From: Enterococcus mundtii
GTDB lineage: Bacteria > Bacillota > Bacilli > Lactobacillales > Enterococcaceae
DNA: 64,000 bases
Direction of reading: 5' to 3'
Assembly (NCBI RefSeq): GCF_013394305.1
Contig: NZ_AP019810.1
Span: 682,001-746,000, forward strand
Of this stretch, positions 17,251-27,857 are shown one piece after another; within the stretch, counting starts at the first letter, position 1, and every line of letters starts with the position of its first letter. Under the pieces are notes generated by a model. It was given only the letters and a program-made list of their open reading frames with translations. It was not told the origin of the DNA and did no database searches. The position numbers and the translations under genes are program-made.

Positions 17251-18597
17251 TTAACCGATCAATACGCTCTCTTCTGGATATTTGTACTTCGTCCCTACTT
17301 GATTTCCTTTTACAAGAATAGAGAAAAAGACGGTTAAAATCCCTACACGTCCGATATACATCAATGACATGATGATCAGTTTCCCGACTTCTGTCAGATC
17401 TGGCGTCAACCCCATTGTCAACCCAACTGTTCCAAAAGCTGAGAACACTTCAAAAGCAATATATTCGATGCCTGAAGTTTCTGGGATCGTCTCAGTCACA
17501 GACAAGACCATGATCGCCAACATACATAAAGACAATGTAACGAAAAACAATGTCAGTGCGCGAAGTACTGCTGCTGGGCGAATAGTTCGTCCGAAAGCTT
17601 CAGCTCTGGTTTTCCCGTTAAATGTCGCATGCATTTGAATCAATAGGATGCCCAAAGTAGTGGTCTTTAACCCACCTGCTGTTGAACCGGATGTTCCACC
17701 GATATACATCAAGATCATTGTCAACATCAAGCCGGCATGACTCATTTGTAAATAGTCGATGGAGTAGTAACCAGCTGTTCTTGGTGTGACACTCATGAAG
17801 AACGTATTTGCTAAACGTTCAAGATAAGTTCCTTCAACTAGATGGATCGCATTTTGTTCGGTAAAGAAAAAGACGATAAAACCGCCCACCAATAAGCCAC
17901 CAGTGACAATCAATGCAATTTTTGAGTGGAGAGTGATTTTCTTTACTTTATGATAACTAAGTAGATCCCGCCAAACAATGAAACCTAACCCACCAGCAAT
18001 GATCAGCGCAGAGACCACCATTAAGAGATAGATGTTTGGCTGATCATTTGCTAAGCTATCCCCTAACAAATCAAACCCAGCATTACAAAAACTTGATACG
18101 GCATGGAAGATGCTGTACCAAATCCCTTTTGTCCATCCGTAAGTCGGCACAAATGTAAAACTCAAGGCAAGTGCTCCCAGCCCTTGGATGACCATTGCGA
18201 ATTTCAAGATATAGAGCATCAAACTCATAACACCTGACATGATTTCAAGATTCAATGCTTCTTTTAGTAAGATCCGCATACTAAAGCTGACTTTTTTCTT
18301 CGCTACTGCAAAGAAAATAATGGGGATCATCATAAAACCTAAACCACCGATCTCGATCAAAACCATGATCAGAAACTGACCGGCTTCATTCCAATGCGCC
18401 GCAGTGTTCAATGTAGTCAAGCCAGTGACACAGACGGCTGAAGTTGCAGTAAATAATGCATCAATATAATTCGTCGGTTCGCCACTTTTACTAAAGAAAG
18501 GCAAAGTAAGTAAACTGCCACCAACTAAGATCAAAAGAAAAAAGCCAACAGCAATCAATTGAACTGGTGACAGTTGTTTTGTTATCCTCTGTTTCAT
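17251..18597 (-). CDS. ntpJ: NtpJ, Trk/Ktr-type K+ transporter membrane subunit (KtrII)
   Basis: A 448-residue K+ (probably Na+-coupled) translocating subunit. In E. hirae NtpJ was shown to form the KtrII potassium uptake system and to work independently of the Na+-ATPase although it is at the end of the ntp operon. The sequence shows four M1-P-M2 repeats; the first filter region is SAVCVTGLTTL, and later loops contain SFCNAGFDLLG, TPRTAGYYSIDY and FGTVGLTMGL. Start ATG 18597 (MKQRITKQLS) follows AGAGGAG; the longer frame from 18642 lacks a ribosome site. No KtrA-like regulatory subunit is adjacent. It is separated from ntpD by 371 bp holding palindromic repeat B, which could terminate most operon transcription. 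Confidence 0.93.
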   Translation of the reverse strand: MKQRITKQLSPVQLIAVGFFLLILVGGSLLTLPFFSKSGEPTNYIDALFTATSAVCVTGLTTLNTAAHWNEAGQFLIMVLIEIGGLGFMMIPIIFFAVAKKKVSFSMRILLKEALNLEIMSGVMSLMLYILKFAMVIQGLGALALSFTFVPTYGWTKGIWYSIFHAVSSFCNAGFDLLGDSLANDQPNIYLLMVVSALIIAGGLGFIVWRDLLSYHKVKKITLHSKIALIVTGGLLVGGFIVFFFTEQNAIHLVEGTYLERLANTFFMSVTPRTAGYYSIDYLQMSHAGLMLTMILMYIGGTSGSTAGGLKTTTLGILLIQMHATFNGKTRAEAFGRTIRPAAVLRALTLFFVTLSLCMLAIMVLSVTETIPETSGIEYIAFEVFSAFGTVGLTMGLTPDLTEVGKLIIMSLMYIGRVGILTVFFSILVKGNQVGTKYKYPEESVLIG

Positions 18598-18834: not shown

Positions 18835-18925
18835 AAACTCCAGATAATAAGCCATAAACATCCGAAATTAGTTAAAGATATTTTTCGACATTTACGGCCT
18901 ATTCTTCGGAGCTTAGAACTGTAGC
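18835..18925. repeat. dispersed palindromic repeat copy B, terminator-like, inside the ntp operon
   Basis: Long inverted repeat (GCCGTAAATGTC...GAAA against TTTCGGATGTTTATGGC, with G-U pairs), followed on the minus strand within 20 nt by nine T. The flank reads CTAAGCTCCGAAGAATAGGCCG, like the arms of copies D and E. It lies between ntpD and ntpJ. The rest of this 371-bp gap shows only a weak 54-codon ORF (18624-18788, minus) with no good ribosome site; it sits where ntpH is placed in E. hirae but I cannot confirm identity. Confidence 0.6.
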
Positions 18926-18968: not shown

Positions 18969-19604
18969 CTAATCAGCGTTCCCCATATTTTTCACTTTGA
19001 TCAAGCGAGTAACTTCCGCACGTTCATTTTCTTCTAACTTCATCTTGATATAATAGATCGTTTCTTCTAATTGTGGAATCGTCATGTACTCTAACGCATT
19101 CACTCTGCGCCGTGTTTTTTCGATCTCACCGGCCATCAGTTGACAGGTTTTCTCGATCTCTGTCAACTCAAGGAGCTTAGGCAGAAATGAGGTAAAACGA
19201 TCGATCGAACGGTCTAATTCTGCATTGGAATTCAAATAGCCATAATCCACCGGTGCTTCGCCTAGCTGTTCGTCATATTCAAAATTCATGATCGGTACTT
19301 TGACGCTCATAATGTTTTTTTCGATAACAGCTAACTCGACATTTTCAGCCGATAGTACAAACAATTCATCAATGAAGGCTTCAGGTAATGAAGCTTTCGC
19401 AAGGACAAAATCGCTCATAGCTGCTGTCATTTCTTTTTCTACTACTTGGCGCAGTTCATTGTTCTTACGGATCAGTAGGATGAATTGACGCATCAATTCA
19501 TCCTGCTTATCCTTCAACAATTTGTGTCCTCTTGTTGCAGTCCTCAATTGCTTTTTGAGTCGTGTCAATTCCATTCGTGTCGGATTAACATTTAATCGAA
19601 CCAT
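18969..19604 (-). CDS. ntpD: V-type Na+-ATPase subunit D (central shaft)
   Basis: Rotor shaft subunit that passes through the A3B3 head and couples ATP hydrolysis to rotation of the K ring; pairs with NtpG (subunit F). The 211-residue protein is almost wholly helical, with the family start [17 protein letters not shown], the two long coiled-coil helices at both ends ([20 protein letters not shown] and [16 protein letters not shown]) and a short beta part in the middle ([14 protein letters not shown]). ATG 19604 was chosen over the longer frame because of the conserved N-terminus and an AAGGGGAGTGAG ribosome site inside the end of ntpB. From memory it differs from E. hirae NtpD at many positions in the middle region, which argues for a different species. 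Confidence 0.95.
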
Positions 19605-19611
19605 CTGACAC

Positions 19612-22762
<3,151 letters not shown>

Positions 22763-22782
22763 TGCACTATCTCCTTTACATT

Positions 22783-23094
22783 CTATAAGATATTTTGTCC
22801 AACTGCTTTTTCCACACTCTTTTGGATCTCTGCTACGCCGATCCCCATCGTTCCTTGATGGCTAGGGATTAGGACAATTGCTGGCGTCATCGATTCTTTG
22901 TAACGTTCTATCGTCTCAGGTGTCATCGCCGCCGATTGTTCTGTGACATAGATCACTCCATAGGCGCTTTTTGCCATTTGTTCGATTGCGCGCCTCACTT
23001 CTTGTGGCTCTGTCGCATAGTGCACATCAAACCCAAATAATTTAAATGGTAAAACAGAATCTTTGTCGCCAACGACACCGATTTTATGCGTCAT
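22783..23094 (-). CDS. ntpG: V-type Na+-ATPase subunit F (NtpG)
   Basis: Small (103-residue) CheY-like central-stalk subunit that binds and stiffens NtpD. Visible features are the initial beta strand [20 protein letters not shown], a central [10 protein letters not shown] and the C-terminal [18 protein letters not shown] helix. Starts 11 bp inside the end of ntpC, in the usual ntpC-G-A order. Confidence 0.95.
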
Positions 23095-24070
23095 AGACTT
23101 GTCTCACCCTTTCTCTGATCGTTTCATTATCAAAGTGATTTTTCTTACCGATCACTAATAGCCGAAGATTTTTGCTCTCAATTTCTTTTGCATTCAAGAA
23201 AGCAAGTAAAGGCAACGGGCCAAAAGCCTGCGTTTGTGCGGCTTCATACAGCGAAGATAAGTAATCGTCTTTGATTTGTTCTAATCGAACAAAATCTAGT
23301 TCTCCTTCATGGATTGCAGGTTCGATCAATTGACGATAATCTGTTGTTTGCAGAAAGTTCAAATAGGTATCCAACTCGCTTTTGACGAAACTCAAAAACG
23401 TTTCTTTCGGGATACTGCCAGAACTTGAAAGTACTGCAGTCATAAAACCACTGGATCGTTGTTGCAAGATACCGCGTGCCATCGTCGTGATATTAGTCAA
23501 ATCAATAAACGCAATGATTTCTTCCAGTAATTCCGGATACCCAAGTTTCTCTCCAAGACGGCGTTGCTCTGTCAAGAAATAGCGATCATAGATAACATCG
23601 ATTCCTTGTAACACAGAGGATTCTTCGCAGTATTCATGGACTTCACGAATACTATCCATCAACTGCGAAGGCAATTCTGTAGAGCCTTGTGTATGGATTG
23701 CTTGCTTTAACGCTTCGCATGAATAAAAACCATCATTACGGTACAGGTGATCCAGATTTTTACCCGTCATCTCGGCTTTTGTCAGGACTTTTAAATTATG
23801 GAACGTATACCGCATCGTATAGACCCAAACGACTTCAGGTTCTGGCGCCGATTCTTTCAACCAGGTAAATAGTTTGCCCGACTCAGCCAATAGATTTTCC
23901 TCAAAGTCCCGTTCAAAACCTTCGTAGATATAAGGATGATAAATCGTTGTTTTTAACATTTCGCCTAATGCGTCCAATGATTTCGTCTGGATCATGCGAT
24001 CAAAATCTTCTTTTGATAAAAGTTCTAATTCTCTTCCACGAATCAAGGGATTTAATTCATGATAATCCAT
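23084..24070 (-). CDS. ntpC: V-type Na+-ATPase subunit C/d (NtpC)
   Basis: Funnel-shaped socket that links the central shaft to the membrane K ring, 328 residues and predominantly helical in three pseudo-repeats. Identifiable segments include [23 protein letters not shown] near the N-terminus, [20 protein letters not shown], and the C-terminal [20 protein letters not shown]. Lies between ntpE (15 bp upstream) and ntpG (overlap). Confidence 0.95.
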
Positions 24071-24084
24071 TCACCGATCCCTCC

Positions 24085-24669
24085 TTACTCGAATAGTTGT
24101 TTCGCAATTTCAAAGCGCATTTGTTCTTGCACTTCTTGTACTAGATCACTATAGACAAAGTTGTATTGTACCCCTTGGTCATCAATCAAAAATCCTGCTT
24201 CTTTGGCAATCCTTCGATCACTTAGATGCAAGGTGAAGGGCAACTGTTGGTTCCACTTTGTCACTACTTCATTGGTTAAAATGGCAGCAGATTTTTCTCC
24301 GGCTAATAAAGTAACCTCACCAGATAAGGATAAATTCTGCACCATATTGAACATCAATGAAAGTTGATCTTCTGCTGGCCAACTTTCTAATTCTTGGCGT
24401 GCTTCAGCAAACAAACGATGTAAAAATTTTTGTTTTTCATTGAGTGTTGCTTGACGCACTTCCACCTGTTGGCGATTTCTTAATTGACGGTAACTCTTTT
24501 CGATTTCTTCAAGTTCTTTAGATTTTTGCTTTTCATCGTCTGCTTCTAAACGCGCACGCTCGATTTTGAACTGCTGATCGATTTTTTCACGTTCTACTTT
24601 TTCAAACGCCGCTCGTTCTGCTTCAGCTGTTTCATTCATTTGACGAATGATATTATCAATGGCGTTCAT
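24085..24669 (-). CDS. ntpE: V-type Na+-ATPase subunit E (peripheral stalk)
   Basis: Stator subunit, 194 residues, that pairs with NtpF as a coiled coil and caps the head. The N-terminal half (about residues 1-90) is a highly charged helix (AEAERAAFEKVEREKIDQQF, EIEKSYRQLRNRQQVEVRQ), and the C-terminal half is a globular alpha/beta domain ending in VQEQMRFEIAKQLFE. ATG 24669 (MNAIDNIIRQM) follows AGGAGG; the longer frame from 24693 has no support. Confidence 0.94.
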   Translation of the reverse strand: MNAIDNIIRQMNETAEAERAAFEKVEREKIDQQFKIERARLEADDEKQKSKELEEIEKSYRQLRNRQQVEVRQATLNEKQKFLHRLFAEARQELESWPAEDQLSLMFNMVQNLSLSGEVTLLAGEKSAAILTNEVVTKWNQQLPFTLHLSDRRIAKEAGFLIDDQGVQYNFVYSDLVQEVQEQMRFEIAKQLFE

Positions 24670-24685
24670 TGTTTTTCCTCCTTGT

Positions 24686-25159
<474 letters not shown>

Positions 25160-25179
25160 TTAAAATTCCTCCAATTTTT

Positions 25180-27174
25180 TTACTTTTTCTTATGATTGAT
25201 ATTGACATATTTTTCCGCTGCTTTCAGTGGATCGAAGGCCCGTCCGCCTCCGGTATAAAACTTGCCGAAAAATTCGACATATTGCAATCTCGCGCCATGC
25301 ACGTAGGCACTAAGCAAGGTCAAGAACATATTCAACGCATGTAAAGCGATGATCAATAAGATCCCGACACTAAAGCGCGCGGCTGGCGGCATGAAAGCAA
25401 CCAACATATTGAAGGCAGCGCCGATACTCCCACCAGAGATCCCCAAAGCCATCAATCGTGTGTAACTCACTAGATCACCGATATAACCAGTCAAACCATA
25501 CAAATTATAGGCTCCTTTTGCAGCACCTTTGACTTTGGATGAAGATTGGAAAATCGGAATGACAAAAATACATAGCGCTGATAAAATCGCTAATCCTGCA
25601 CCTAGGTAAACAAAAATCGGGTTCTTGACGATCATACTACCAAGTAATAAAAGGACGACTCCCACTAAAATCCCTTGCCAGGCAAATCCATCATTGATCG
25701 CATCCACGTAATCTTTGCGCTTGATATGCTCTTTTGCTGCAAGAAACAATCCTACTAAGATTTGGATAAGCCCAAAAATGACAGACAAGACTAAAATCGT
25801 ATTGACATCATCTGTTGTAGACAACAACGGGAAGGGTAAGTGGATACCTAATACTTCGGTCGGTAACGCTTGTCCAAAGAAGGAACTATAAATAAATCCC
25901 CAGATGATCGACGGAATCGCTAAGATTTCGAAAAACTTAGCAAATCGCTGCATCCCTCGAGGTAATACCAACAATTTTTGCGCAATGATTGCGCCTATAA
26001 GCATGAGTAAACCATAACCAATATCAGCCACCATCATCCCGAAAAAGACAAGATAAAATGGCGTCATCCATGGTGTCGGATCAATTTCATGATACTTAGG
26101 TAAACTGTACATTTCCGTCAGCATTTCAAAAGGTGCCACGATTGGATGGTTCTTCAATTTCGTTGGTACTTCTTGATCGATCTCTTCTTCGGTGGGCGCT
26201 TCAAAGCTAAGAAAGACTTCATCAGCAGACAACGTATTTTCTACCTGCTGGATCAATTCTTGCTTTTCGTCCTCGCCGACCCATCCTTGGACAACGATCA
26301 GGTAAGGCGCCATGACAAATCGATCCTTCACTGCTTCTCGTTCTGCCATTGCCAAGAGGATTTCTTCTGCCCATTCCAATTCTTGGATGTAACTGCTACA
26401 ACGACCGATTTTGATCGCTAATTGTTTTTGTGCTTCGTAACAAGCTTGCAACTCTTGCTTGATTTCCTGTAGCTGTTCTTTTGGCGTTTGCTCATAAGGA
26501 TATGCTTCTTTGACAAAACCATAACGAGTAGCAATCTCATCGACAATAGATGCTGAAGTTTTGAGCACCACGTAAGTCAAGTAAACGAAGTGATCTGTTT
26601 CGCTGACTTCTTCCACATAGACCTCTGGAACTTTTGCTAATGCTTCTCTAAATTCTGTCGCATTAGCAACACTGATCGTTCCCATCTCAACTGTTGTTTG
26701 GTGACTACTAAAGCTTTGCGGTATAACATCCAGATTTGCCCAATGTGTCAACCTGTCTTCCTGCTCTGACAGTTGTTCTCGTTGTTCTGCTAATGTTTCC
26801 CATTGTTTCTTCAAGCCTAATATTTCAGTTAAACGCTTCGTAAAATCTTCTTCCGAATAATTTGCTTCTAGTTCCTGCAAGGTCACTTCTCTTCGTTTGA
26901 GGTGTTGTTTCTTTTGTTGCTTGTCCCCATGATGATCAATGAACTGAACAGCTTCTCTTGTTTGCATGATCCGACTAGTAAGCGCATTGACGATCGGTTC
27001 TTTTTCAAAAATCGCTGCCTTAGGAAAATAAGTATCCACCCATTGATTATTTGTCGTTTCTTGAAAAAGATCGCGAATCTCTACATTTTGGATGCCTTGG
27101 ATTGCTTGTAATAAGGCATCCTGATTTTGTTTATCGGAAATAAGAGTCACTTTTTCCATCTTAGTGACGGCCAT
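25180..27174 (-). CDS. ntpI: V-type Na+-ATPase subunit I/a (membrane stator)
   Basis: The 664-residue stator subunit forms the two ion half-channels against the K ring. The N-terminal half (about 1-340) is cytoplasmic, with long coiled-coil arms ([19 protein letters not shown]); the C-terminal half has seven to eight membrane helices ([25 protein letters not shown] in parts). The essential Arg is in [13 protein letters not shown]. The start overlaps ntpF by 14 bp. Confidence 0.95.
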
Positions 27175-27484
27175 AGGTTTCTTTCACCCTTTCAATGATC
27201 GCGTCAACCGCTTGCTGACGTTGCTTCTCATATTGTTCTTGTACGATGGATTGCAATCGTCTAGCGTCTTCGTTCAATTTATTTTTTTCAGCAATCGCTT
27301 TTTGCTGTTCCGCTCGTTTTTTTTCTTCAAGCAACTGTTCCAAATGTTGTTTTTGACTTGCACGAAGTTGATCCAATTCGACCGCTTTTGCTTCTTTATA
27401 ATCTTTTAACTCTTGCTGAAGCTTTTTCATCGCTTGTTCATTTTCTTTTTCAGCTTGTTTGATTTTTTCTAAGGCTTCTAGCAC
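27161..27484 (-). CDS. ntpF: V-type Na+-ATPase subunit G/H-type peripheral stalk protein (NtpF)
   Basis: First gene of the operon: a 107-residue, almost entirely coiled-coil protein ([42 protein letters not shown]) with no globular part, as expected for the stator partner of NtpE. ATG 27484 follows GGAAGTAGGGA, a workable ribosome site, only about 20 nt after the T run of a leader terminator. The coiled-coil nature makes family assignment rest largely on position before ntpI. Confidence 0.9.
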
Positions 27485-27503
27485 ATTCCCTACTTCCTTT
27501 CTC

Positions 27504-27552
27504 TAAAAAAAGAGGGACATCCTTTCTTTTTTCATTGAAAGTATGTCCCTCT
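27504..27552 (-). terminator. leader terminator (attenuator) in the ntp 5' untranslated region
   Basis: AGAGGGACAT-ACTTTC pairs with GAAAG-ATGTCCCTCT and is followed by seven T on the minus strand. It lies downstream of the ntp promoter and 20 nt before ntpF. The next gene upstream is divergent, so there is no other minus-strand transcript for it to end; a conditional role is likely. Confidence 0.85.
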
Positions 27553-27574
27553 AAAAATAACTTCAGATAATCTA

Positions 27575-27640
27575 GGCACTTTCAAAAAAATGTTCTTCTC
27601 ACCCCTTGAAGAACTAGATCCTTGAAGCTTGCGCCCAACC
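27575..27640 (-). promoter_or_regulatory. structured leader RNA, candidate Na+-sensing riboswitch aptamer
   Basis: On the minus strand GGCGC pairs with GTGCC, an internal loop follows, then TTCAA/TTGAA, enclosing a perfect 7-bp hairpin (GTTCTTC, nine-base purine-rich loop AAGGGGTGA, GAAGAAC). The element lies between the predicted start site near 27656 and the attenuator at 27504-27552. Na+-I (DUF1646 motif) riboswitches are known to control Na+ transport genes and Na+-dependent ATPases, which makes this class the leading candidate. I have not matched the consensus base by base. Confidence 0.6.
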
Positions 27641-27662
27641 ATTTATATATTTCTTACTTACA

Positions 27663-27690
27663 AGTATAACAAATTCAGGTAAAATTTCAA
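27663..27690 (-). promoter_or_regulatory. predicted promoter of the ntp operon
   Basis: Minus strand TTGAAA (27685-27690), 16-bp spacer, extended -10 TGT-TATACT (27663-27668). It leaves an untranslated leader of about 170 nt before ntpF. Confidence 0.7.
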
Positions 27691-27857
27691 CTAACAGATC
27701 CCTTTTTCCTTTCAGAAAGTTCATAACTGACAGTAAATGAGCAACTTTAGAAACATTCTACCTATTATATAATTACGTACGTTTTCCAAAACAAATATTT
27801 TAATTTTTTTTTAAACTATTGCTAAAATAGAAGTAGTTTATGAATGGAGGAAATCGT

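Follow-up and report, generated by a model that had tools for sequence, protein, structure and literature searches.

The ntp leader of Enterococcus mundtii: a Na+-I riboswitch probably linked to a separate terminator by an antitermination relay

Induction of the Enterococcus Na+-ATPase by Na+ is a classic observation, and the locus considered here raises the question of which RNA strands ahead of the ntp operon could produce such a response. The ntp leader lies on the minus strand of a 64,000-nucleotide (nt) stretch of the E. mundtii contig NZ_AP019810.1 (assembly GCF_013394305.1, positions 682,001 to 746,000), hereafter the window, whose own numbering is used throughout. It is located between ntpF, the first gene of the Na+-translocating V-ATPase cluster, and a gene of the peptidase C26 family beginning at 27840 on the opposite strand, the divergent neighbor that had been described in the original prediction for this DNA. 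According to the analysis presented here, a Na+-I riboswitch probably (about 80%) controls the ntp operon by transcription attenuation through a three-state antitermination platform, which would explain the induction at the RNA level. The riboswitch class and its ntp target are already known from print for enterococcal V-ATPases: in the available text of White et al. (2022, PMC9337991), enterococcal and clostridial V-type ATPase genes are said to carry the Na+-I class, and the finding of the EF1492 (ntp) leader of E. faecalis by Term-seq is cited. Consequently, what is added here is mechanistic, namely, which strand is the sensor, which the decoy and which the antiterminator; the complementary base changes that test the mechanism are definite.

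The covariance model of the Na+-I (DUF1646) riboswitch, RF03071, matched the leader in the Rfam scan (Table 1) with a score of 44.2 bits against a gathering cut-off of 40.5 (E-value of 7.2 × 10−6 for the 64-kb window and 4.1 × 10−8 for 361 bases), and this site was the sole one among the RF03071 matches listed for the window's genome. The proposed class was thus borne out by the covariance search that had been named as its check. A match at E ≤ 0.001 was found in 16 of 16 genomes of the same genus and in 103 of 106 genomes of the same family, 83 of the latter passing the RF03071 cut-off. Of 14 control genomes, only one had a match to the family. The comparative set, taken from the same-genus and same-family listings, comprised 114 places (three of the 106 family genomes contributed none), of which 93 were upstream of ntpI, mostly with a recognizable ntpF, and 21 were upstream of other genes. 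Both the aptamer and the leader are kept before ntp in the relatives, in line with the conservation that had been expected. All 114 places had the UUCAAG motif and the P2-loop GGG, whereas GGUUG served as the extraction anchor, so its conservation is no test. The window aptamer contains A27623 and A27622 at the P1 base (CAAG) and G27605-27602 in the P2 loop (GGG); by our own mapping of these residues to the kefB numbering, they correspond to the P1 base and P2-loop GGG on which the Na+ response of kefB depends (mutants M1 and M2 in the available text of PMC9337991).

A separate observation concerns genome G059 (genus g8), whose ntp leader L037 is nearly identical to the leaders L006 and L008 of the window's genus. 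The NtpJ protein of G059 (L129), encoded on the same contig as this leader, is 78% identical to that of the window, and the ntp locus of G059 may reflect either horizontal transfer or a contaminating contig.

The compact fold drawn in the original prediction was present in the leader, although not as the aptamer. The leader (27658-27484) folded at −46.2 kcal/mol versus −33.8 ± 3.4 kcal/mol for dinucleotide shuffles (z = −3.70; not reached by any of 200), and the resulting minimum free energy (MFE) fold contained both stems as drawn, the outer GGCGC/GTGCC within 27638-27631/27579-27572 and the inner TTCAA/TTGAA within 27626-27619/27588-27581. In this fold, both P1 strands are paired with downstream RNA, and it was therefore rejected as the Na+-binding structure. 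Since it consumes both P1 strands and shares only P2 with the aptamer, it is the aptamer's competitor (hereafter the anti-aptamer), and the two structures, which have nucleotides 27638-27633 and 27626-27622 in common, are mutually exclusive. The anti-aptamer is most likely the Na+-free OFF shape. Its z value against shuffles was negative in 89 of the 93 ntp leaders (−2.26 on average), the strongest values being those of genera g3 and g13 (mean z = −3.1).

The intrinsic terminator was found where it had been predicted, with about 20 nt between its U-tract and the GTG of ntpF (27484); the hairpin (27552-27511) has an energy of −20.8 kcal/mol and is followed by seven U. No minus-strand terminator was listed by a simple terminator scan, because the 10-nt upper loop exceeds the limit of the scan and the stem is interrupted. 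The terminator begins at 27552, 39 nt beyond P2, and has no nucleotide in common with the aptamer, which ends at 27593; thus, some relay between the two is required.

The pairing of the strand following P2 (X) with the terminator 5′ arm was studied in the 60 ntp leaders that have a separate terminator (types B and AB, see below), by calculating the duplex energy and swapping partners between leaders. Cross-pairing energies were used instead of pair counts, since the multiple alignment (A1) misaligned the terminator 3′ arms. The antiterminator pairing coevolved across all 60 leaders (z = −10.2, a value that none of 20,000 permutations reached), with z values of −18.5 for the positive control (the two terminator arms) and +1.3 for the negative control (X with the terminator 3′ arm). 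When one random leader per genus was taken (12 genera, 200 draws), the median z was −4.4 and p ≤ 0.05 was obtained in 200 of 200 draws, versus 0 of 200 for the negative control; omission of g8, whose leader L037 nearly copies g1 leaders, changed the median little (−4.15). A set of 33 leaders gave z = −7.6 (positive control −14.3; negative controls −0.8, −0.6 and −1.2). It should be noted that these 33 were picked by hand across clades after the individual shuffle scores had been seen, and that the 27 omitted include eight poor scorers (L029, L041, L044, L046, L054, L058, L068 and L069); the result stands after extension to all 60 leaders and the random draws. In each of the 12 genera, X paired better with its own terminator arm than, on average, with the arms of other leaders, and in 11 of the 12 the own pairing also surpassed both cross averages (g11 failed one). 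Compared with shuffles, the antiterminator duplex had a mean z of −2.14, with 32 of the 60 leaders at p ≤ 0.05.

Several results weigh against an antitermination relay in this leader. The antiterminator of the window leader, taken alone, had z = −1.70 (p = 0.066), so that the case rests on the relatives, and z was positive in three of the 60 leaders (L054, L058 and L068); the terminator arms were probably misassigned in L041 and L054. The own partner was the best or tied best in 5 of 60 leaders (23 of 60 for the terminator arms), since near relatives share sequence and their pairings are interchangeable. Along the strand that they share, the two pairings overlapped at 9.1 positions, only somewhat more than the 7.0 expected. 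The anti-aptamer was weak in the window's genus (mean z = −1.50; p ≤ 0.05 in 4 of 16 leaders), with z close to zero in g9, g10 and g14; its swap test was modest (z = −2.8; 60 of 20,000), as expected where one strand is fixed by the aptamer. Finally, the full-length leader favors the terminator state by 8-11 kcal/mol; hence, the ON state must be kinetic.

The folding of growing leader prefixes, in which neither Na+ binding nor tertiary contacts enter the energies, points to a sequence of steps that can be read as such a kinetic ON switch. With 70-75 nt made, retention of the aptamer costs 0.3 kcal/mol, which is level with the best alternative, and with 85 to 110 nt made, the predicted cost is 9-11 kcal/mol. 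If the aptamer is held, the antiterminator is predicted to form by 124-136 nt, before the base of the terminator 3′ arm is out, and the cost drops to 1.6-3.7 kcal/mol. At low Na+, the strand after P2 (27588-27572) would invade P1 to give the anti-aptamer; the antiterminator strand would be tied up, and the terminator would form and stop transcription before ntpF (OFF). At high Na+, the ion would clamp the P2 loop to P1, leaving the invading strand free to pair with the terminator 5′ arm while the base of the 3′ arm is still unmade, and polymerase would read through into ntpF and the rest of the operon (ON). The modeled leader geometry is consistent with an ON switch, and in the kefB representative of C. 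acetobutylicum, Na+ prevents termination, according to the available text of White et al. (2022, PMC9337991).

The leaders were divided into types according to where a hairpin runs into a U-tract. In type A (27 of the 93 ntp leaders), the stem starts in the P1 5′ strand and runs straight into the U residues; in type B (32), a separate terminator is found only beyond P2; type AB (28) has both terminators, and six leaders were without a terminator call. The 21 leaders of other genes comprised 19 of type A, one of type B and one unassigned, and all 16 leaders of the window's genus were of type B. In type A relatives, the anti-aptamer stem from the P1 strand runs directly into the U-tract. Read as a series, the types suggest that the invading strand serves as a terminator in A, as an anti-aptamer feeding a remote terminator in B, and as both in AB. 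It is on balance probable that, under a single Na+ aptamer, the relay platform has diversified into types A, B and AB within one family, with the sensor and the target fixed. Type AB, with two terminators in series under one aptamer, would then be a double-checked Na+ gate.

The same series bears on a direct platform, in which the aptamer itself overlaps the terminator and there is no separate antiterminator. This is the arrangement of the published kefB representative (available text of PMC9337991), and the P1 5′ strand forms part of a terminator-like stem in 55 of the 93 ntp leaders and in 19 of the 21 others (types A and AB). For the window, however, it is improbable, since in this leader and the 15 others of the genus the sole terminator found is beyond P2 and has no nucleotide in common with the aptamer, and since the antiterminator pairing coevolves. 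The window leader resembles kefB in the aptamer match, in P1 and P2 with the conserved P1 base and P2 loop, in the ON-type geometry and in the Na+ transport target, whereas it differs in that aptamer and terminator, overlapping in kefB, are separate and linked by the anti-aptamer/antiterminator strand. The EF1492 leader of E. faecalis shares the class and the operon with the window; the ntp leader L030 of genome G016 belongs to this class too but is of type A, with a terminator stem that includes the P1 5′ strand, whereas the window has the remote terminator only.

It is less probable still that the leader RNA has the Na+-I shape but, in this lineage, a different ligand (Li+, or pH acting via a fold change) or responds to Na+ only indirectly. 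According to the available text of PMC9646797, Li+ is the ligand of the related nhaA-I motifs, rare variants of which have changed ligand; furthermore, the title of Ikegami 1999, a reference-list entry, indicates that expression of the E. hirae V-ATPase responds to pH besides Na+. However, no other riboswitch family came near its own cut-off at the aptamer site in an Rfam scan at a permissive threshold, the residues conserved in P1 and in the P2 loop agree with the Na+-I model, and the relatives precede cation-transport genes. The four representatives of the 21 non-ntp places searched against Pfam precede a cation-transporting ATPase, two Na+/H+ exchangers and a Na+/Ca2+ exchanger, and one further place precedes KtrB; the remaining ones were judged by eye, with L101 giving no frame. 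A constitutive attenuator or a protein-bound leader with an incidental aptamer match, which would suit the strong terminator winning at equilibrium, is very unlikely, as the aptamer is kept in the same 16 of 16 and 103 of 106 genomes despite turnover of the sequence that separates it from the gene.

In the antitermination riboswitches of Firmicutes, alternative strands choose between a terminator and an antiterminator. The ligand usually leads to the terminator (OFF; this form is shown in a figure legend of PMC10043782), whereas in the window, binding would free the antiterminator (ON). The words "antiterminator" and "anti-terminator" are absent from the main text of PMC9337991 (its supplements being outside the scope), and a Na+-riboswitch antiterminator relay was not found in the open PMC literature, where in four further papers the Na+ riboswitch appeared once, as a reference-list entry. 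The relay may be undescribed so far, but the evidence for this is weak, since the supplements and most subscription papers, including the Term-seq paper, lay outside the search. A natural series of platforms around a near-constant aptamer would be useful for studying the evolution of riboswitch outputs and for Na+-responsive reporters.

Table 1. Positions of the leader elements and of the ntp genes in the window.
Feature	Position	Strand	Details
Promoter	27663-27690	−	−35 TTGAAA, 16-nt spacer, extended −10 TG-N-TATACT; from sequence and the conserved TGNTANANT
Na+-I aptamer	27593-27640	−	P1 = UUGGGC 27638-27633 with GCUUCAA 27628-27622
Aptamer P2	27614-27608/27598-27592	−	7-bp hairpin, loop AAGGGGUGA
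Anti-aptamer (compact fold of the original prediction)	27572-27638	−	MFE fold; P2 kept on top, P1 excluded
Antiterminator strand UUGAAAGUGCCU	27574-27585	−	Within the anti-aptamer 3′ strand; coevolves with the terminator 5′ arm
Antiterminator partner	27535-27549	−	GGG 27549-27547 and UACUUUCAA 27543-27535; mostly inside the terminator 5′ arm
Intrinsic terminator	27504-27552	−	Base 27552-27544/27519-27511; upper stem 27541-27537/27526-27522; U-tract to 27505
Ribosome-binding site AAGGAAG and ntpF GTG start	27493-27499 and 27482-27484	−	Both 3′ of the terminator; from sequence
Na+-translocating V-ATPase genes ntpF, I, K, E, C, G, A, B, D, in order	18969-27484	−	
ntpJ/ktrB-like K+ uptake subunit, last cluster gene	17251-18597	−	TIGR00933, 382 bits; ATG 18597

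The extended −10 promoter and the leader of about 170 nt were present in the interval originally given (27484-27690), with the promoter at 27690-27663, and transcription would start near 27656-27658. In all 16 leaders of the genus, the TGNTANANT element was located 31-33 nt upstream of the aptamer; over all places, it was within 70 nt of the aptamer in 83 of 114. Promoter-like sites across the 2-kb region were not commoner than in shuffles (5 versus a mean of 4.3). NCBIfam matches were obtained for NtpI, K, C, G (subunit F in the NCBIfam naming), A, B and D, whereas NtpE had only a Pfam match below the threshold; a PF01991 search of the window's own genome gave no match, which is uninformative, as NtpE itself was only sub-threshold. 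No family match was found for NtpF in the NCBIfam and Pfam scans, and the gene was named ntpF because of its position and its conserved place before ntpI. In the window, the peptidase C26 gene (27840-28576, plus strand) is broken into two frames that overlap; L012, L013, L016 and L116 match almost the whole of both parts within a single frame, but L007 and L115 do not.

The last gene of the cluster, ntpJ, lies 9 kb downstream of the leader, after a 370-nt gap following ntpD, and in 16 of 16 same-genus genomes its distance from the riboswitch was 8.7-9.0 kb. The gap contains a strong hairpin (18846-18903, minus strand, z = −3.73), and nine consecutive U residues begin 8 nt past its stem; ntpH was not evident in the gap, the longest minus-strand open reading frame being 58 amino acids. 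It is plausible that read-through from the leader reaches ntpJ. Northern data cited in the available text of PMC12604602 describe a polycistronic ntp mRNA of E. hirae that includes ntpJ and is induced by Na+ or alkaline pH, and in E. faecalis the ntp genes were up approximately 6-fold on average in 6.5% NaCl, as given in the available text of PMC3995695.

Homologues of ntpJ were regarded as unlinked when they were on another contig, more than 50 kb from the ntp leader, or in a genome without a listed ntp leader, the coordinates being compared by eye. RF03071 was found upstream of only one (L161) of the 29 unlinked ntpJ/ktrB homologues scanned among those listed, in a scan that left out G066, G097, G098 and G099, among others, and distant paralogues (~35% identity); thus, a riboswitch on unlinked ktrB is no general rule. 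The match in question (L105/L161; G016, C1:249379-249429) scored 35.2 bits, below the cut-off of 40.5 (E-value of 1.5 × 10−5 for the genome), and starts 118 nt upstream of the start codon (ATG) of a KtrB/NtpJ homologue that is 57% identical to NtpJ of the window. Judging from this sequence match, ktrB of G016 may have its own Na+ riboswitch. The site is 1.03 Mb from the G016 ntp leader, which resembles the corresponding distance of ~1.025 Mb in E. faecalis OG1RF (available text of PMC12604602), and G016 is therefore probably E. faecalis. In genus g13, six of nine scanned loci (L140, L141, L142, L144, L145 and L146) each had two copies of Ref84 (Enterococcus small RNA 84 of Rfam) next to ktrB.
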